Origin: Bacteroidota bacterium
Lineage (GTDB): Bacteria; Bacteroidota; Bacteroidia; 2-12-FULL-35-15
Assembly (NCBI GenBank): GCA_947469885.1
Contig: CANIQT010000001.1
Location: forward strand, 372,001 to 436,000
Length of the DNA: 64,000 nt
Direction: 5' to 3'
Both the position numbers and the translations under genes were made by a program. Below the pieces are notes generated by a model. That model was not told where the DNA came from. It was given only the letters and a program-made list of their open reading frames with translations, and made no database searches. This document shows, piece after piece, positions 9,653 through 59,761 of this stretch (its first letter is position 1; each line of letters opens with the position of its first letter).

Positions 9653-10993
9653 TTAAAATCCGTCTGCTATATAAATTAATGATTGGCTGTCGGCACCTCC
9701 ACCTCCACCTCCGCTCGAAGGAGATAAATATTGCCAAGAACCGCTGTTATAATAATAAAATCCACTTGGGCTGTCGGTTTGAAAAACCAGCAAGCCGTTT
9801 GCCGGTGAGCTTATGGTGGTGCGCTGGGCACTGGTCATTCGTGGAATAAGCAAACCCGATGTGGTGGACGAAACATCCAGAGCAGCAGAAGCAACAGGAG
9901 GAGTACCCGCAGCACTTATGCTAACATTGGTTCCGCTATTATAGATGTTGCTGGTTGCTGCCCATCCTGACCCATCGTAATAAATCGTTTGTCCGGTAGT
10001 ACCTGCAAACCCAATACTTCCGGTTGCGCCAGTAGCACCAGTTGCACCATTTGTTCCATTAGTACCATTGTTCCCCGCAGGGCCTATTGGACCTGCGTTA
10101 CCTGTTGCACCCGTTGCGCCAATTGCACCATTTATACCATTGCTGCCGTTTGTTCCATTTGTGCCAGTTGCACCGGTTGCACCATTATTACCCGTAGCAC
10201 CCACAGGGCCAGTGATACCAGTAGCTCCATTAATTCCATTTGTTCCATTAGCACCAGTTGCTCCTGTTGCGCCATTTATCCCATTGGTTCCGTTAGTTCC
10301 ATTACTTCCATCGGTTCCGTTGTTACCTGTTGCGCCTGTAGCCCCATCTATTCCGTTAATTCCATTTATACCGTTTGTGCCGTTAGTTCCATTAGTACCG
10401 TTAGCACCTGTTGCACCTGTAGCACCGTCTATCCCATTAATTCCATTTATACCATTTGAACCATTCGTTCCGTTTGTACCATTAGCACCCGTTGCACCGG
10501 TTGCTCCATCTGTACCATTAATTCCGTTTGTGCCGTTGGTTCCGTTAGCACCAGCCGCTCCCGTTGCACCTGTAGCACCTGCACTTCCTGCACCGGCAGC
10601 AGCATACAACGCATAAGGCACACTCATCAGTTGTTGTGTTCCCATTAATACATAAGAGGTGCCTCCGGTTACATCCATACTTATTTCTATAAAATAAGGA
10701 CCACTACCCCAGTTAATCGTATTGAAAGTTCCTGTTGCCACTGTTCCCGTTCCAACTACTACATTTAATAACCCAATGTTATTGGAAGTAGCAGTAAAGG
10801 TTTCGGTATAAACGATAGTGCCTGAAGCACTGCCCTGCCTAAGACTAATTTGTAAACCTATCGACTGGTTAGTTATAGCCACACCAGATGACGTACGTGC
10901 CACTGCCTGATAATTGAACCCCTGTGGAGCTTGCGCTTTGATTGTTATGTTTACTACTAAACTTAACATTACTAATAAGATTGTTTTTTTCAT
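9653..10993 (-). CDS. Collagen-like surface protein with Gly-X-Y repeats
   Basis: This is a 446-residue exported protein. The signal peptide ends near IKAQA (residue 21). It is followed by a conserved Bacteroidota N-terminal domain starting PQGFNYQAVAR (to about residue 130). About 66 collagen Gly-X-Y triplets follow (residues about 136-334), dominated by GTN, GIN and GAT with very few prolines. The C-terminal beta domain (SGLLIPRMT...GLLVFQTDSPSGFYYY) is the kind also found in tail-fibre-like Bacteroidota surface proteins. It ends with a Gly-rich stretch and no T9SS sorting domain that I can see. The triplet DNA is repetitive and opens long frames on the opposite strand, which are artefacts. 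Confidence 0.85.
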   Translation of the reverse strand: MKKTILLVMLSLVVNITIKAQAPQGFNYQAVARTSSGVAITNQSIGLQISLRQGSASGTIVYTETFTATSNNIGLLNVVVGTGTVATGTFNTINWGSGPYFIEISMDVTGGTSYVLMGTQQLMSVPYALYAAAGAGSAGATGATGAAGANGTNGTNGINGTDGATGATGANGTNGTNGSNGINGINGIDGATGATGANGTNGTNGTNGINGINGIDGATGATGNNGTDGSNGTNGTNGINGATGATGANGTNGINGATGITGPVGATGNNGATGATGTNGTNGSNGINGAIGATGATGNAGPIGPAGNNGTNGTNGATGATGATGSIGFAGTTGQTIYYDGSGWAATSNIYNSGTNVSISAAGTPPVASAALDVSSTTSGLLIPRMTSAQRTTISSPANGLLVFQTDSPSGFYYYNSGSWQYLSPSSGGGGGGADSQSLIYIADGF

Positions 10994-17074: not shown

Positions 17075-19483
17075 CTATGCTATCTTATAAAGTTCATTTT
17101 CCAAATCCTTTACTGCCTCCATATATTTATCCTTACTTCCAAACTCCTTTATAATCTCCAATGGCGAACCTATCTCATCAAAAGGGTTTAATCTTAATAT
17201 ATCCATACTCTCAATGTTTTCAATCCCTTCATCGGCATATTTATCAAGCAATGCTTCCAAAACCTTTTTGCTTTGTTCGCCATATTTTGTAAAGTAGTTG
17301 CGTTTCTTTACATTGTTGGCTCTTTCTTTTCTGGTAAGTGGTGGTTGGTCATAAGTAACGTGGCAAATTAAATCAAACAAGTCTACTTTTTTATCCACTG
17401 CATCATATAAGGCTTCTACCAAAACGCCTTGTTGTTGCAGTTCTTCAATGATTGCTTCTTTGCGGTCGGTGGTTTTCCATTTCGTCAGGAAATCATTTAA
17501 AGAAGCGTAGTTGCCTTTTATTATTTCTTTGGTATGGTCTTTCAGGCTTACTGTTATTGGTCTGCCTTGCTGGTCGAAATACATTTCCCGACTAACTAAA
17601 ATAGAAACATCTACTCCATTAACATAAATCTTTTCTCTTTTTTTATTTCCATCATTTACCCAATTGCCTTTTAAATGCGAACCGTCAGGGTAACGTATTT
17701 TTGCTTTTTCAAAAACTATTATTTCTCCTGTTTCTTCATCGGCTACTGTTACGGTATCTTCCTCTTCTTCCAATACCACATAACCTAAATCTTCATCCTG
17801 TGTAACAGGTTTTATTCTTATTGGGTCACCATCAAAATCAGGTCGTGCAAACTGGTCAGTAGCATTACGGAAATCAAGGATGGTGAAATAGAGTTTGTTG
17901 TATTCTTCGTTAATACGAGTTCCTCTTCCTATTATCTGTTTGAATTTAGTAGTTGAATTGATGTTCGCATCAAGCACAATAACCTTGCACGTTTGGGCAT
18001 CTACACCAGTTGTCATTAATTCGGAGGTAGTAGCAATTACAGGGTATCTCTCTTCGGGATTAATAAAATTATCCAATTCACGTTTTCCCTCATCATTATC
18101 GCCTGTAATCTGCATAATGTATTTGTTGTTTTCATTAAACAAATCACCATTTAGTTTTATTAAAGCAGAGCGCATTCGTTCAGCGTGGTCAATATCTACA
18201 CAAAACACAATTGTTTTTGCAAAGCGGTCATATCCCTTTAAAAACTCTGTGAGTTTTTTTGCAACTAAATCAGTTCGCTCATCTACTACTATTGTCCTGT
18301 CAAAATCAGTGCGATTGTAAATCCTGTCTTCAACTGGTTTTCCTGCTTTATCTAAAAAACCTTTTGGTGGTCGCCATCCTTCCAAATCAATGTTTAAACC
18401 AACTCTTACTACTCTGTAGGGAGCAAGGAAACCATCGTCAATTCCCTGGCGCAATGAATATGTATAAATAGGGTCACCAAAATATTCAGAGTTACTTGTT
18501 TCTTCTGTTTCCTTTGGAGTAGCAGTTAAACCAATATGAGTAGCTTTTTTAAAGTAAGTTAAAATCTCTCTCCAACTGCTATCATCTTTCGCGCTTCCTC
18601 TGTGGCACTCGTCAATAATAATCAAATCAAAAAAATCTGGCGAAAATTCTTTATACACATTTGCATCTTCGTCAGTGCCCGATAATCCTTGGTAAAGCGC
18701 GAGGTATATTTCAAAACTTTTATCAATCTGACGGTGTTTTACTACAGTCATTTTATCTTTAAAATGTTTGAAATCATTTCTTCGTGTCTGGTCAATCAAT
18801 GCATTTCGGTCAGCTAAAAACAGAATTCTTTTTTTAGCACCCGCTTTCCATAAACGGTGAATAATTTGAAAAGCAGTATAGGTCTTTCCTGTTCCTGTAG
18901 CCATCACCAGCAATATACGGTTCACTCCTTTTGCAATTGCCTCCACTGTTCTGTTAATTGCTATCTGCTGATAGTATCTTGGTTTGCGGCCGGTACCATC
19001 AAAGAAATAATCCTGCTCAATTACCTTTTCAGAAGCAGGAGTAATAATACCCTTGTGCTTTTTATACTTCTCCCAAAGTAGCTCGGGAGATGGGAAATCA
19101 TCTAAAGATATTTCAGTTTCAATGTTTCCGTCAGCAGTTGTTTTATCGTGAAATAAAAAACCGTCACCATTACTACTAAATACAAAAGGAATGTCTAATG
19201 TTCTAGCATAATCTAGAGCCTGTTGTATTCCTGCCCTGATAGAATGATTGTTATCCTTCGCTTCTATAATAGCAATAGGAATATTTGGTTTGTAGTATAA
19301 TATATAATCGGCCCTTTTACGTGAACCTCTTGCTGTAAGTTTACCTTGCACATATATCTTTCCATCCGTAAAACTAACTTCTTCCAATACCTGCGTCAGT
19401 TTATCCCACTTCGCATTTTCCAATGCTGGTGTAATATACTTAGTACAAATATCTCGTTCGGATAAACTCTTTTTATCAATCAT
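17075..19483 (-). CDS. hsdR: Type I restriction-modification endonuclease/translocase HsdR (EcoEI-like)
   Basis: This 802-residue motor-nuclease subunit has an N-terminal PD-(D/E)xK nuclease with RADYILYY (D59) and IAIIEAKDN (E74, K76). The superfamily 2 helicase follows, with Walker A MATGTGKT (194-201), the DECH box in IIIDECHRG, motif III GLTATP and motif VI QIIGRGTR. A C-terminal helical region for binding the methylase follows. The length is that of the shorter EcoEI-type HsdR. It is the first gene of the defence operon. Its upstream region holds three inverted repeats and a -7 box. Confidence 0.95.
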   Translation of the reverse strand: MIDKKSLSERDICTKYITPALENAKWDKLTQVLEEVSFTDGKIYVQGKLTARGSRKRADYILYYKPNIPIAIIEAKDNNHSIRAGIQQALDYARTLDIPFVFSSNGDGFLFHDKTTADGNIETEISLDDFPSPELLWEKYKKHKGIITPASEKVIEQDYFFDGTGRKPRYYQQIAINRTVEAIAKGVNRILLVMATGTGKTYTAFQIIHRLWKAGAKKRILFLADRNALIDQTRRNDFKHFKDKMTVVKHRQIDKSFEIYLALYQGLSGTDEDANVYKEFSPDFFDLIIIDECHRGSAKDDSSWREILTYFKKATHIGLTATPKETEETSNSEYFGDPIYTYSLRQGIDDGFLAPYRVVRVGLNIDLEGWRPPKGFLDKAGKPVEDRIYNRTDFDRTIVVDERTDLVAKKLTEFLKGYDRFAKTIVFCVDIDHAERMRSALIKLNGDLFNENNKYIMQITGDNDEGKRELDNFINPEERYPVIATTSELMTTGVDAQTCKVIVLDANINSTTKFKQIIGRGTRINEEYNKLYFTILDFRNATDQFARPDFDGDPIRIKPVTQDEDLGYVVLEEEEDTVTVADEETGEIIVFEKAKIRYPDGSHLKGNWVNDGNKKREKIYVNGVDVSILVSREMYFDQQGRPITVSLKDHTKEIIKGNYASLNDFLTKWKTTDRKEAIIEELQQQGVLVEALYDAVDKKVDLFDLICHVTYDQPPLTRKERANNVKKRNYFTKYGEQSKKVLEALLDKYADEGIENIESMDILRLNPFDEIGSPLEIIKEFGSKDKYMEAVKDLENELYKIA

Positions 19484-19866: not shown

Positions 19867-19898
19867 GCCCCCCTTTGTGTAGGCAAAGGAGGGATTTT
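19867..19898 (-). terminator. Terminator after the helical/FN3-like protein gene
   Basis: The stem CCCCCCTTTG / CAAAGGAGGG with a 6-nt loop is flanked on the minus strand by a long T run (and by a short one on the plus strand). It lies 47 bp downstream of the stop at 19945. Confidence 0.8.
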
Positions 19899-19944: not shown

Positions 19945-20559
19945 CTACGGAATAACAATGTTGATTATTGTACTCCACGGATGAGTTCCGTTTTTATCGA
20001 CATACGTTACTCTAAAATAGTAACGTTTGCCACTTGTTAGTCCGGTAGGTTTAAAGCTGGCTTTGGTGCCAACATACAACGTTACCCAACTAAGGTCATC
20101 GGAAGGAGTAAGCGAAAACTGAAACTGGAAAGTTCCTCTTTTCACAGCTTTTGTTCTCAACATCGCTTCTCCCGGCACAGCACCATCAATTTTAACTCTA
20201 AAATCGTTTGGTGGTAAAACAGCCACACGCTTAACTCTCATTCCAGCACTTAAAATCGTTTCCGAAGCAGTGCTTACCTCCAAATTTGCGATGGTTTCTA
20301 CATACCCACCCAAACTAATGGTTGAAAGTTCCAAGATGTTGCGGAATACCCGAACCGTTGCTGTTTTCAACGGTCCGCCAGCAGTAGCTGCCATTGCATC
20401 CGACATATTCACAATGTCTGCAAGATAGCTCACCAAGCTTGGACTTGGTGTAATAAATCGTAAGTTACCAGTCATCGCACTATGTATGGCGCGGGCTAAC
20501 GCAATCAGTTGGGAGTTACTTAATTTTTTCAGTCCCAACACTACAATAAATCGTATCAT
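19945..20559 (-). CDS. Helical domain + fibronectin III-like protein, array-associated (1)
   Basis: This 204-residue protein has no signal peptide. The N-terminal half is helical (KLSNSQLIALARAIHSAMTGN, FITPSPSL, and a GGYVETIANLE segment near residue 86). The C-terminal half is a beta sandwich ending KRYYFRVTYVDKNGTHPWS, as in an FN3 domain. Proteins of this layout are frequent in Bacteroidota, but I know of no assigned role. The start at 20559 (MIRFIVV) is preferred over an extension to 20589. A 21-bp tandem array lies about 140 bp upstream. The protein at 38687-39415 has a similar layout and its own array. Confidence 0.7.
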   Translation of the reverse strand: MIRFIVVLGLKKLSNSQLIALARAIHSAMTGNLRFITPSPSLVSYLADIVNMSDAMAATAGGPLKTATVRVFRNILELSTISLGGYVETIANLEVSTASETILSAGMRVKRVAVLPPNDFRVKIDGAVPGEAMLRTKAVKRGTFQFQFSLTPSDDLSWVTLYVGTKASFKPTGLTSGKRYYFRVTYVDKNGTHPWSTIINIVIP

Positions 20560-20695
20560 AGTTTTTTGATTTATTTTGTCTCCTCCCATCTCCCTCCGGC
20601 TACGCGAAAATGAGATTCAACGTTATTTTTTTTATTTAATTGTATGCCGGACTATCTTTTACTGTCTTTTTACTGTTTTATGTACTTTATCTGTT

Positions 20696-21073
20696 GATTC
20701 TTCCACCTTTCCTGTCGTTTCTTCCACATTTCCTATCGTTTCTTCCACCTTTCCTATTGATTCTTCCACCTTTCTTATTGGTTCTTCCACCTTTCCTGTA
20801 GATTCTTCCACCTTTCCTATTGATTCATCCACCTTTCCTATCGTTTCTTCCACCTTTCCTATCGATTCTTCCACCTTTCCTATTAATTCTTCCACCTTTC
20901 CTATTGGTTCTTCCACCTTTCCTATTGGTTCTTCCACCTTTCCTATCGTTTCTTCCACCTTTCCTATTGGTTCATCCACCTTTCCTATTGATTCTTCCAC
21001 CTTATCAATGGTTTCTTCCACCTTTCCTATTGTATCGTCCACCTTTCCTATTGATTCGTCCACTTAATCTATT
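20696..21073. repeat. 21-bp tandem array 1 (18 units)
   Basis: There are eighteen head-to-tail units of exactly 21 bp. The core TTCTTCCACCTTTCCTAT is nearly invariant. Variation is concentrated at unit position 2 (A, T or G) and position 21 (T, C, A or G), with rare changes at positions 1, 3 and 6. The last unit degenerates. On the minus strand the array stays open for 134 codons (20659-21063) as a 7-residue repeat E-E-[S/T/P/L]-I-G-K-V with a coiled-coil-like I/V spacing. Two plus-strand frames are open as well, so openness alone does not prove a protein. The array sits upstream of the helical/FN3-like gene. Confidence 0.95.
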
Positions 21074-21409
21074 AATAAATTCACGATTTCCATTCATTTC
21101 CCACGAATGTCTGTAATGTTTATGATTTTTACGAAACATAATTTCGAGTAGTTCGTTAAAAAAACACGCTTGTTCCTTCACCCGCAAAGGTCTTGGTTCG
21201 TTTTGTAACTTTTGTTCTTTTTCGGTTTCACTTTCCAGAACAAAATTGTTTGATTTCAAAAAATCATACAATAGTTTTTCTGTTCTAAAGTATTCGGTAA
21301 TAAAAACTCCTAATGCTTCTTTGGGTTCAGTTAATTTTTTCCATTCCTGTTTCAAATAATCCACAAGGTCATCATCTTGTTGATTATTGATATAATTGAA
21401 ATTTTTCAC
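21005..21409 (-). CDS. Small protein of unknown function whose end runs into array 1
   Basis: This 134-residue frame starts at a GTG at 21409. The first 110 residues are non-repetitive, charged and helical (EYFRTEKLLYDFLKSNNFVLESE), which looks like real coding sequence. The last 20 residues (GRINRKGGRYNRKGGRNH) are array 1 read in a different frame from the E-E-S-I-G-K-V reading. The array may have replaced the original 3' end, or the short basic tail is native. No family is recognised. It lies between the LytTR gene and the array on the same strand. Confidence 0.45.
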   Translation of the reverse strand: MKNFNYINNQQDDDLVDYLKQEWKKLTEPKEALGVFITEYFRTEKLLYDFLKSNNFVLESETEKEQKLQNEPRPLRVKEQACFFNELLEIMFRKNHKHYRHSWEMNGNREFINRLSGRINRKGGRYNRKGGRNH

Positions 21410-21578
21410 GACTCTTTGTTTTTTAGTTCAACTTCAGAAATCATCTTAATGGATTTCCTGATACAAAGGTCGGGAGATAAAAAGCGCCCTTTGGAATTAT
21501 TGTTTAAACGCGGAAATTTTCGGATAACTGCGGAATTATGGGGGTCAGCTGCGGAAGAGTTTTAGTAAAAATGAGGTT

Positions 21579-22004
21579 CTACTTAAAAAATCTTCTTTTT
21601 ATTTTAAGAAAAAATTCAATAAATCTGACAGCTCTTTTTTCAGCAACTTTTAAAACTACACCATTTTCCATTTCTAAATGAAATTCCTTTTTAAAATACT
21701 CTTTGCATTGATTTCCATTAACAGCGCAATTATCGTGAATTCTGAAAAATGTTTGGGAAGGCAACATTTTCATTGTTTCACTCATTGATTTTATGATTAT
21801 AATTTTAGAATGGTCTAGCAAGTGAAATGTAGTGTAATCGCCTTCCACATCAAGGTAATTTATTTCTCCTGTTACTACAAATACAAAACTTTCTTTGGTT
21901 GGAAAAGGAATTTTTTCTAATTGATTGGTGCTGTATATTCTTGTAATATACTTTTTACCACCTGTTTGTTCTGCTTTATTAGCAGCACTTTCTGACGGGT
22001 CCAT
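21579..22004 (-). CDS. LytTR-domain DNA-binding regulator
   Basis: This 141-residue protein is almost entirely a LytTR domain: the start GEINYLDVEGDYTTFHLLDHS, then SMSETMKMLPSQTFFRIHDNCAVNGN, the conserved core containing F-x-R-I-H and V-N. No receiver domain is present, so it is an orphan LytTR regulator. The ATG at 22004 gives a compact protein; a TTG at 22079 would add 25 residues of doubtful sequence. LytTR proteins bind pairs of direct repeats spaced about two helical turns apart (established for AgrA, ComE and relatives). A 21-bp array begins about 500 bp downstream. Confidence 0.82.
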   Translation of the reverse strand: MDPSESAANKAEQTGGKKYITRIYSTNQLEKIPFPTKESFVFVVTGEINYLDVEGDYTTFHLLDHSKIIIIKSMSETMKMLPSQTFFRIHDNCAVNGNQCKEYFKKEFHLEMENGVVLKVAEKRAVRFIEFFLKIKRRFFK

Positions 22005-22323: not shown

Positions 22324-22373
22324 CAACTAATGACTAATGACTAATGAACTAATGACTAATGTACCAATGAACT
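22324..22373. repeat. 7-bp-period degenerate repeat (CTAATGA family)
   Basis: About seven units of CTAATGA-like heptamers, with one-base slips, end 5 bp before the -7 box of the THUMP methyltransferase gene, so the repeat occupies the -33 region of that promoter. Confidence 0.8.
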
Positions 22374-38636: not shown

Positions 38637-38664
38637 AAAAAGCCATGCATTTCTGCATGGCTTT
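38637..38664. terminator. Bidirectional terminator between convergent genes
   Basis: A perfect stem AAAAGCCATGCA / TGCATGGCTTTT with a short TTTC loop and A/T flanks serves the plus-strand CotH gene and the minus-strand helical/FN3-like gene. Confidence 0.85.
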
Positions 38665-38686
38665 TTGTTTTACTTAATACAATTAT

Positions 38687-39415: not shown

Positions 39416-39518
39416 TTTTGTTTTTTTTAGTGATTATTAATTTCCGATTGATTTCTATTTATTTACTTCATATTCTATTTTTTAATTTCTGATAGTATTG
39501 ATAGCACTTCCTTTCATG

Positions 39519-39686
39519 TTTCGGATACTATCTGTGACGTTTCGGATACTATCCTTGACGTTTCGGATACTATCTGTGACGTTTCGGATACTATCTGTGA
39601 CGTTTCGGATACTATCCTTGACGTTTCGGATACTATCCTTGACCTTTCGGATACTATCTGTGACGTTTCAGATACTATCTGCCAAT
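39519..39686. repeat. 21-bp tandem array 2 (8 units)
   Basis: Eight units of exactly 21 bp start at 39519. The core is TTTCGGATACTATC, a 2-nt variable site, then TGACG. The variable dinucleotide (positions 15-16) is only ever TG or CT, in the order TG CT TG TG CT CT TG TG. The last unit is degenerate. On the minus strand it reads as the 7-residue repeat I-V-S-E-T-S-[Q/R] in a 66-codon frame (39514-39714). It lies about 100 bp upstream of the helical/FN3-like gene. Confidence 0.95.
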
Positions 39687-40270: not shown

Positions 40271-40936
40271 ATGAAAAAAATTTACACCCTCATCATTGCA
40301 TTATTAATTTGCAAATCAATAACAAGTGTTGCACAATGTGCATCTTCTGTTTCGAGTTACGATTTAACAGTAAGCACCAACATGGTGTTGCACCCCACTG
40401 GTTCATCGTATTTTATGATTGCCATTTGTCCGGGCGCAGTTTTGCTCGATAGTATGATGTGTTGCACTCGATTTATACACATACCCGGAGGTGCAGTTTA
40501 CCAAGCAGGACCAATGGCTTACGGTATTGTTTATATTCAAAGTGGTGGAACATTTGATGCTCAGAATTTCGGGGGATCTTTTAGTGTGTATTACGAAGCA
40601 GGTGCTAACATCCTTAATTTTACAGGGCCAGCCATACTATGCAGTAGTGTTTCTTTTCCACCCATGCTTTGCGTGGCAACGAGCACAAACGAAATAAACA
40701 TGGAAGAAACTATGGCCATTTATCCAAATCCAACAACCAATCAGTTAACAGTGAATAGTGAACAGTTGATAGTAAAAGAAATAAAACTGTTTAATGTTTT
40801 GGGAAAAGAAGTTTTTCAATCCGAAATTCAAACTCCGAAATCGGAAATTAATTTAAAAGGAATTGACAAAGGAATTTATTTTGTGGAAATAAAAACAGAC
40901 GTAAAAATAGTAAAGAAGAAAATAGTAATTAATTGA
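40271..40936 (+). CDS. Small secreted protein with T9SS type A sorting domain
   Basis: This 221-residue protein has a signal peptide ending near SVAQC (residue 21), a cysteine-containing beta-rich domain of unknown type (CPGAVLLDSMMCCTRFIHIPG), and a T9SS type A sorting domain starting MAIYPNPTTNQLTV. In the sorting domain two stretches, QLTVNSEQLIVKE and SEIQTPKSEIN, are translations of 7-bp repeats. The ATG at 40271 gives the signal peptide; an extension to 40220 is not used. Confidence 0.8.
   Translation: MKKIYTLIIALLICKSITSVAQCASSVSSYDLTVSTNMVLHPTGSSYFMIAICPGAVLLDSMMCCTRFIHIPGGAVYQAGPMAYGIVYIQSGGTFDAQNFGGSFSVYYEAGANILNFTGPAILCSSVSFPPMLCVATSTNEINMEETMAIYPNPTTNQLTVNSEQLIVKEIKLFNVLGKEVFQSEIQTPKSEINLKGIDKGIYFVEIKTDVKIVKKKIVIN
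40742..40776. repeat. 7-bp repeat read in frame in a T9SS sorting domain (1)
   Basis: The heptamers are CAGTTAA CAGTGAA TAGTGAA CAGTTGA TAGTAAA. Three heptamers make 21 bp, so the protein gains a 7-residue repeat (QLTVNSE then QLIVKE). Confidence 0.85.
40819..40853. repeat. 7-bp repeat read in frame in a T9SS sorting domain (2)
   Basis: The heptamers are ATCCGAA ATTCAAA CTCCGAA ATCGGAA ATTAATT, 42 bp after the first. Confidence 0.7.
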
Positions 40937-41008
40937 TAATGGATAATTGATAATTGATAATGCCAGTTAGTTAATTATTCATTGTCAATTATTAATTATC
41001 AATTACAC
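40935..41008. repeat. Paired 7-bp repeats forming an imperfect inverted repeat
   Basis: GATAATG GATAATT GATAATT GATAATG (40935-40962) is followed by ATTGTCA ATTATTA ATTATCA ATTACAC (40981-41008). The second block is roughly the reverse complement of the first. It starts at the stop codon of the upstream gene. Confidence 0.8.
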
Positions 41009-58786: not shown

Positions 58787-59539
58787 TTAATGCGTTAATT
58801 CCACCCAGCCTTTCAATTCTTTCCCAGTTATTTCCACTACATAAAAATAAGTGGCATCGGGCAGGGCAACTCCGTTGCTGTTGCTTCCGTCCCATCGGAT
58901 GTCTAAATTGTTATACCCTGATTTTTTCCAAACTAAATTTCCCCAACGGTTGAAAATAGAAACGGTGTTTTCGGGATAATCTTCGATGTGTGTAATGTAC
59001 CACCAATCGTTATTGCCATCTCCGTTAGGAGTAATACCATTATAAAACTCCAATGGAGAAATACAATTTACCTGATCTTCGGTGATGATTACCGAGTCGT
59101 TAATAGTAAATGTTCCATCGGTGGCGGTGTAATGATATGTTCCGGGAGCAAGATTGCTAACAAAATTGGCAGTGCTAACAAGTGGCGGTGCCCAAGTGTA
59201 AGAAACAGGACCTGTACTGCTCAAAACACCTAACGAAGCCGACCCATTGTGGGCACCTATGCAGGTGGAGTTTACATAAATAAGATTGATGCTAAAAGCA
59301 TTGTTCATGGGTTGCTGAAAGCCCTGAGTTAGGGTTTTTATGGTAAATGGACTGCCGGGAGTATAGGTTTCTACCATTGGTTCGCCCACGGTATAGTCCA
59401 GCGTCATGGTGGCGGAAGTGTGACTTCTGCCTGTGCTCCCCAACACCTGCCTCATGGGCGGGTTGTTTTGTATCTGGGCATAAATGCCTGATGCAAAAGC
59501 TATTGTAAGGATGAGTACGATGTATTTTTTATGAATCAT
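58787..59539 (-). CDS. Secreted protein with gliding-motility/T9SS type B C-terminal domain
   Basis: This 250-residue protein has a signal peptide MIHKKYIVLILTIAFASGIYAQ. A region with NPPMRQVLGSTGRSH (a T9SS N-terminal surface module) and an SprB-like beta repeat (INLIYVNSTCIGAHNGSASL) follow. The type B sorting domain is YNGITPNGDGNNDWWYI...SIFNRWGNLVWK. The start at 59539 is chosen for the signal peptide; the frame continues upstream through array 3 (MILTVGK repeats), which is unlikely to be translated as part of it. It is first in the trio with porP and porE-like genes. Confidence 0.88.
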   Translation of the reverse strand: MIHKKYIVLILTIAFASGIYAQIQNNPPMRQVLGSTGRSHTSATMTLDYTVGEPMVETYTPGSPFTIKTLTQGFQQPMNNAFSINLIYVNSTCIGAHNGSASLGVLSSTGPVSYTWAPPLVSTANFVSNLAPGTYHYTATDGTFTINDSVIITEDQVNCISPLEFYNGITPNGDGNNDWWYITHIEDYPENTVSIFNRWGNLVWKKSGYNNLDIRWDGSNSNGVALPDATYFYVVEITGKELKGWVELTH

Positions 59540-59564
59540 GTGCTTTTTTTTGTCAATTTTTACC

Positions 59565-59732
59565 ATTTTACCAACTGTTAGAATCATTTTACCAACTGTT
59601 CGAACCATTTTACCAACTGTTGGAACCATTTTACCAACTGTTAGAACCATTTTACCAACTGTTGGAACCATTTTACCAACTGTTAGAATCATTTTACCAA
59701 CTGTTGGAATCATTTTACCAACTGTTAGAATC
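59565..59732. repeat. 21-bp tandem array 3 (8 units)
   Basis: There are eight units of exactly 21 bp. The core ATTTTACCAACTGTT is followed by a variable base (A, C or G; position 16), GAA, a T/C site (position 20) and C. A degenerate ninth unit follows. On the minus strand it reads as M-[I/V]-[L/P/R]-T-V-G-K. It fills the 222-bp gap between the fibre gene and the T9SS type B gene and ends 26 bp from the start codon of the latter. Confidence 0.95.
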
Positions 59733-59761
59733 ATTCTGACAATTGATAAAATTCCTTGTTT

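Follow-up and report, generated by a model that had tools for sequence, protein, structure and literature searches.

A recurring cassette of regulator gene, 21-bp repeat array and helical-FN3 gene as a candidate multi-site operator system in a Bacteroidota genome

What does a tandem array of 21-bp units do when it stands in front of a small gene, and does so again in front of another gene with a quite different unit sequence? The question is raised by a stretch of 64,000 nucleotides of a Bacteroidota bacterium (GCA_947469885.1, contig CANIQT010000001.1, positions 372,001 to 436,000), which is referred to as the window. The genome of the window is designated G000 and its contigs carry C-numbers. 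A sequence-only reading had described two minus-strand genes for a protein with a helical N-terminal half and a fibronectin type III (FN3)-like C-terminal half. Each was preceded by a 21-bp array, followed by a terminator and accompanied by a small regulator gene. It was suggested that each array is a private address for its gene, or that array and gene form one mobile or phase-variable unit.

The arrays are read here as candidate multi-site operators within a recurring cassette of regulator, operator array and effector, in which the array would switch the helical-FN3 gene. We give this reading even chances. The regulator, a LytTR protein in the first cassette and encoded just upstream in some putative cassette copies, would bind the array units and switch the downstream gene. 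Many sites in helical register could allow cooperative or all-or-none control. Each regulator may have co-diverged with its array, giving cassettes without cross-talk, and through solo arrays the same regulator would also act on host genes.

Three exact 21-bp arrays of at least seven copies were found in the window (Table 1). The described anatomy was confirmed for both genes, with arrays 104 and 102 bp before the ATGs and a terminator-like hairpin behind each gene. The unit sequences of arrays 1 and 2 have nothing in common. Of the two regulators, the LytTR protein was clear (E 1.7e-10, 41.4 bits against a Pfam PF04397 cut-off of 22.6) and the LuxR-type helix-turn-helix (HTH) protein, though present, was weak (13.2 bits, below the cut-off of 23.5). 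The LytTR protein has no receiver domain by Pfam, and no array was found before its own gene. The arrangement had been said to occur twice. This is real but too small a count, as array 3 had gone unmentioned and arrays of this period are found genome-wide. The private address stood for arrays 1 and 2. In a BLAST search of G000, which is 91% complete, array 2 matched its own place alone and array 1 its own place and one 34-bp stretch (E 0.001). Array 3 has relatives; a family cassette on contig C8 carries an array that is about 70% similar. Similarity between G000 arrays exceeded the 99.9% null level in 21 of 2,211 pairs, where 2.2 were expected; six of these were trivial, involving a 7-mer repeat or arrays within a single gene, and eight fell within the C15-type group. 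Three of the 21 paired a cassette array with an array elsewhere that was not beside a family gene.

The family of gene 1 is multi-copy, with 34 profile hits in G000. The upstream scan covered 29 of them, leaving out L014 and four hits without a locus. An array (best lag 21, 42 or 63, score at least 28) preceded 14 of the 24 copies with at least 400 bp upstream. The array ended 61-179 bp from the ATG in 12 of the 14 copies and at 283 and 463 bp in the other two. Less than 400 bp was available for L029, L033, L035, L040 and L041, and several of the remaining rows were second genes or pieces. In other genomes of the class, with a score threshold of 26, an upstream array was found at 12 of 17 genes, ten with lags that are multiples of 21 and two with lags of 41/103. 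The remaining five comprised two weak arrays and three genes with none. Downstream arrays at such lags were found at none of the 17. These genes come from 11 genomes, which means that some of them are not independent; L067 and L198 are probably one gene, and L198, L199 and L202 are from one metagenome-assembled genome. Left out of this set were L051 and L071 (too little upstream sequence), L075 (a fragment with no array) and L061-L064, which are other FN3-bearing proteins of 377-645 amino acids, none of the four with an array. L065, L066, L076 and L077 were outside the analysis. Five of six follow-up genes picked before their DNA was seen had arrays (best lags 42, 63, 84, 84 and 105, one scoring 24.0) and the sixth had nothing. 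Among 13 named loci of Bacteroidota and Verrucomicrobiota, again at a threshold of 26, seven had an upstream array, one of them with a period of 22, and two of the seven were Verrucomicrobia or Akkermansia records. It is strongly supported that the arrangement recurs with unrelated repeat sequences, a second phylum included, as had been proposed from the window.

In the 1.245 Mb surveyed of G000, 77 tandem arrays were counted, and 55 of them had a period of 21 or a multiple of it; in 0.40 Mb of G004 the figure was 16 of 22. Three genomes of the same genus that lack family hits (G009, G010 and G011) gave 11 arrays in 0.40 Mb, none with such a period. The count was one of seven in 400 kb of G008, G033, G039, G027 and G015, which have 1-9 family hits, with one more array of lag 103. 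It was one of one in 80 kb of G023, G034, G038 and G028, which have no family hits. A general rule that genomes with the family have arrays and others do not was given up; the difference is clear only for G000 and G004 against G009-G011. Within genomes, the enrichment that the sequence-only reading had proposed as a check was found. An array lay within 500 bp upstream of 4/8 family genes and 46/974 other genes in G000 (p 3.6e-4), and of 3/6 and 15/295, respectively, in G004 (p 3.2e-3). Arrays equally frequent before unrelated genes would have spoken against the cassette; they do occur there, which in part tells against it, but at a lower rate. Arrays are enriched at family genes and are not confined to them. 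Pfam assigned no family at E 0.01 to 11 of 15 hand-picked proteins beside other arrays. Several of these other array-side proteins showed, by eye, a helical N-terminal half and a beta C-terminal half.

A repeat of 21 bp could also be seven codons, and the arrays might then encode heptad repeats or coiled coils. Array 1 has an open frame of VEESIGK units, and relatives keep one by eye. Two arrays with periods that are multiples of 21 lie inside related genes of 324 amino acids (L121:8791-9765 and L141:7565-8539), one of which matches winged-helix HTH families. No coding signal was found overall. Codon-position bias at p<0.05 was seen in 3/70 arrays, which is the chance level, and two of the three were inside genes. 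No open frame was present in 12/70, and periods departed from 21, being 22 in L207 and 20.5-20.6 (41/103) in L057 and L068. The periods of 20.5 and 22 together with the lack of codon bias point to a constraint near two turns of DNA and not to seven codons, and the coding explanation is disfavoured as very improbable. Spacing by two helix turns is a common means of setting proteins on the same face of DNA. Conserved columns were clustered within the unit in 17/71 arrays (p<0.05; Fisher combined 1e-9), and the mean column autocorrelation was 0.10 in these 71 arrays compared to -0.045 in 15 arrays of other periods. Dyad symmetry exceeded that of shuffled columns (p<0.05) in the units of 28/100 arrays, a set that mixes family, other and in-gene arrays. 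Examples are ATGATATCAT (L236), TTTTGTACAA (L205) and AAATAGTACTATTT (G000 C1:57860). The dyad GGATAGTATCC occurs within some units of array 2 and was not significant (p 0.11). Clustered columns and dyads point to protein recognition sites.

Regulator genes cluster at the arrays. In four G000 census contigs an array was no more than 600 bp away from 6 of 10 LytTR or HTH_3 domains (p 1.4e-5 by coverage), compared to 71/472 open reading frame (ORF) calls of 80-260 amino acids (Fisher 1.2e-3). Four of the 17 LytTR domains of G000 had one of the 34 family hits no more than 1.5 kb away (p 1.3e-3), or six of 17 (p 8e-6) if the weak phmmer hits C19:79642 and C9:137786 (E 0.01 and 0.02) are counted. 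All six were among the eight with frames of 100-192 amino acids and none among the nine of 232-289 amino acids. A small LytTR gene (C3:45155) and a larger one (C3:246869) adjoin an array; the surroundings of the last small LytTR (C12) were outside the comparison. HTH_3 genes stand beside arrays at C3:136414, C3:80508 and C3:228384. With C21, the first cassette of the window and the two C3 LytTR genes, these make seven places where regulator, array and gene follow on one strand. A divergent arrangement was seen at C7:153609 and in the second cassette of the window. The single LytTR gene in 400 kb of G004 lies 178 bp before a family gene. Among 20 hand-picked array-side genes, seven had DNA-binding, sigma-factor or HNH-repeat matches in Pfam above or near the cut-off, of which two had already been identified as LytTR.

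Literature searches for the combination of array, helical-FN3 gene and regulator returned no description. Known LytTR sites consist of 9-bp repeats separated by 12 bp (PMC2766830), and have been described as lacking a common consensus (PMC4847170). In the available text on LytTR Regulatory Systems (HdrRM and BrsRM; PMC6193735) the repeats are mostly 12 bp apart, with low sequence and conserved spacing, and lie upstream of the regulator's own operon. The published spacing of 9+12 is 21 bp, and this is taken to account for the period of the arrays in LytTR cassettes. The likeness extends to a small LytTR regulator near direct repeats, to high conservation of spacing with low conservation of sequence, and to a separation of 11-13 bp between 9-bp sites, which gives a period of 20-22 bp where the arrays here have 21. 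There are also differences from the systems as presented in that source (PMC6193735). These have two repeats and the arrays here 8-18; their repeats precede the regulator's operon, whereas the array here lies between regulator and helical-FN3 gene; and their partner is a membrane inhibitor, which the neighbours of the window LytTR gene do not resemble, judged by eye only. Other cassettes have an HTH_3 gene or no known regulator, unlike LytTR Regulatory Systems. BldC-type regulators bind a variable number of direct repeats head-to-tail, which is like the array layout here, but the repeats are of 9 bp, the protein is MerR-like and no cassette appears in the available text (PMC5859096).

Some cassettes share more than a layout. 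The C15 and C7 copies have a block of common DNA that opens 71 bp ahead of the array and runs through the gene, with identities of 98.6% in the leader, 96.2% in the gene part and 81.5% in the spacer, and array consensuses that agree at about 14.5 of 21 positions. The C34 and C40 copies share the gene end, and their similarity breaks off about 20 bp past the stop codon, where each has a different hairpin. A further copy of the 71-bp leader, at C7:133687, is followed by a different array, and on that strand no frame of 60 codons lies behind this array. A 27-bp piece of the leader with five C15-type units stands on C5 (L242) directly before a gene which we take to be ftsX-like. This could be a recruitment of a cell-division gene. 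The suggestion of one mobile unit is supported for one subfamily by its sharp shared edges. Judging from these shared blocks and from the excess of alike array pairs, the arrays disperse.

The same blocks favour the chief rival of the operator reading, in which a MITE-like (miniature inverted-repeat transposable element) minisatellite cassette disperses, its arrays grow by repeat expansion, and the gene is a passenger with no operator in front of it. BrickBuilt of Porphyromonas gingivalis is a precedent, the nearest one found for array dispersal (PMC4596501). It is a tandem 23-nt minisatellite array with leader and tail and many intergenic copies, likewise in Bacteroidota. As described in the available text it has one repeat sequence and no gene, whereas here the units are unrelated, a gene is aboard and the period is 21 (PMC4596501). 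BrickBuilt is marked by the same repeat in all copies, whereas neither array 1 nor array 2 occurs in full a second time in G000. Reading the cassette edges of one subfamily by eye showed no terminal inverted repeats. Drift alone does not account for unrelated arrays in two phyla having one period near 21, nor for core-spacer columns, dyads, the usual distance to the ATG and the clustering of regulators. This rival is considered somewhat unlikely, and dispersal and operator function are compatible. A different possibility is that the array acts at the RNA level, being transcribed and working either within the mRNA leader or as an RNA in its own right. The 71-bp leader is the most conserved non-coding part of its subfamily and, by eye, could hold a promoter. 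The spacer of gene 1 is partly conserved in L198 and L199, where a TCCGGC...GCCGGA pair is kept (both by eye). A period near two turns and the dyads suit double-stranded DNA better, and an RNA role is improbable.

The helical-FN3 protein might also bind its own array and regulate itself. This would fit relatives 80% and 71% identical to P0001, whose units look related by eye. Against this, the protein matched no known DNA-binding fold, and gene pieces at the start and end of C7, 97% identical over 368 bp, have different arrays and spacers. Self-binding is regarded as quite improbable. In the predicted structure the C-terminal half of P0001 is an FN3 beta-sandwich, which supports the FN3-like half first proposed, while the Pfam fn3 (PF00041) score of 17.1 is below the cut-off of 25. 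Its relatives L200 (44.5), L205 (32.8) and L207 (33.0) are above it. The FN3 half resembles that of phage tail proteins and of many others, which says little. The N-terminal helical domain had no clear structural match in fold searches, and no signal peptide was seen in the product by eye. The GYVE-x-IAN-like segment described earlier was present as GYVETIAN in P0001 and GYADRVEPIAN in P0002. BLASTP found no meaningful similarity between the two proteins (best E 6.7), but a profile-profile alignment was co-linear over 174 columns (probability 28%, E 6e-4), and a common origin is plausible on this basis. A phage origin was rejected (three partial tblastn matches at E 0.8 and none in one viral_contigs scan), as were a plasmid origin (no tblastn match against plasmids), a defence family (no PADLOC match for eight proteins) and a named family (weak NCBIfam and PHROGs matches only, mostly on the FN3 part).

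Several observations weigh against the operator reading. Arrays precede many other genes, as counted above, some are solo, and some lie within 500 bp downstream of family genes (1/8 in G000 and 2/6 in G004). The link between array number and family number across genomes is clear only at the extremes. The different arrays at the near-identical C7 gene pieces tell against it as well. The gene in 4/7 of the one-strand triples (C3:43828, 245650, 79447 and 227244) is a small gene unmatched by the family profile. At the LytTR-family locus of G004 the array stands behind the gene, and the C19 and C9 pairs of LytTR gene and weak family hit have no array. No DNA-binding, sigma-factor or HNH-repeat match was found for 13/20 array-side genes. 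Upstream genes at the named loci gave weak HTH matches below the cut-off in 3/9 cases and none in 6/9. The flanks of loci in other genomes (1.5 kb; up to 10 kb at named loci) yielded no LytTR. LytTR sites do not explain the 21-bp period of arrays beside HTH_3 genes. The 9+12 split in conservation within LytTR arrays is modest, and it was maximised over windows without a null. A Bacteroidota promoter motif showed no excess in nine spacers (3 compared to 5.4 expected).

Table 1. Positions of cassette features and array 3 in the window
Feature	Position	Strand	Description
Family gene 1, P0001	19945-20589	minus	214 amino acids; predicted N-terminal strand and four-helix domain, C-terminal FN3 domain
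Spacer, array 1 to ATG of gene 1	20590-20693	minus	104 bp; presumed promoter and 5' leader
Array 1	20694-21063	minus	period 21, 17.6 copies, 87% matches; read as a candidate operator array
Small ORF, 131 amino acids	21008-21400	minus	3' end reaches into array 1
LytTR DNA-binding protein, 141 amino acids	21579-22004	minus	LytTR the sole Pfam domain
Terminator-like hairpin 3' of gene 1	19868-19893	minus	
Family-like gene 2, P0002	38687-39415	minus	242 amino acids; possible remote or analogous relative of gene 1
Spacer, array 2 to ATG of gene 2	39416-39517	minus	102 bp
Array 2	39518-39681	minus	period 21, 7.8 copies, 92% matches
LuxR/GerE-like HTH protein, 84 amino acids	39880-40134	plus, divergent	Pfam score below cut-off
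Terminator-like hairpin 3' of gene 2	38637-38666	minus	
Array 3	59562-59735	minus	8.3 units of 21 bp; no family gene there
CHU_C/SprB-type secreted-protein gene	58787-59539	minus	no family member; array 3 lies 22 bp before

The small ORF that reaches into array 1 encodes a protein with 41% identity to the one at the equivalent place in L198. A type I restriction R-subunit-like gene (17075-19483) adjoins the first cassette. Elsewhere in the window, 9-bp-based repeats unlike the 21-bp arrays occur at 10023-10581 inside the ORF at 9653-10993, and short intergenic 7-bp repeats at 22326-22370 and 40930-41005. Outside the window, four Sphingobacterium loci (L205, L206, L208 and L209) have a DUF5675-type gene after the family gene (Pfam was run on L205 only) and small proteins before it, some with weak HTH matches below the cut-off. 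At L027 and L028 short upstream frames appear to overlap the start of the family gene by ATGA, which suggests translational coupling. L085, L088 and L090 are near-identical contig starts with a family gene and a second, stop-containing family piece, and two of these contigs begin in a 40-bp repeat.

A bolder form of the operator reading, which we consider rather unlikely, is an orthogonal switch library. The genome would hold dozens of cassettes, each with its own regulator and 21-bp array, in rapid co-divergence and with solo arrays wiring host genes. If the operator reading is right, a widespread bacterial operator would be conserved in its spacing and not in its sequence. Searches by sequence would miss an operator conserved in this way. 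One genome would then hold many natural regulator-operator pairs, perhaps without cross-talk. These would supply orthogonal parts and offer a direct test bed for the divergence of DNA-binding specificity that follows duplication. The arrays would also give the first functional handle on an uncharacterised multi-copy protein family.

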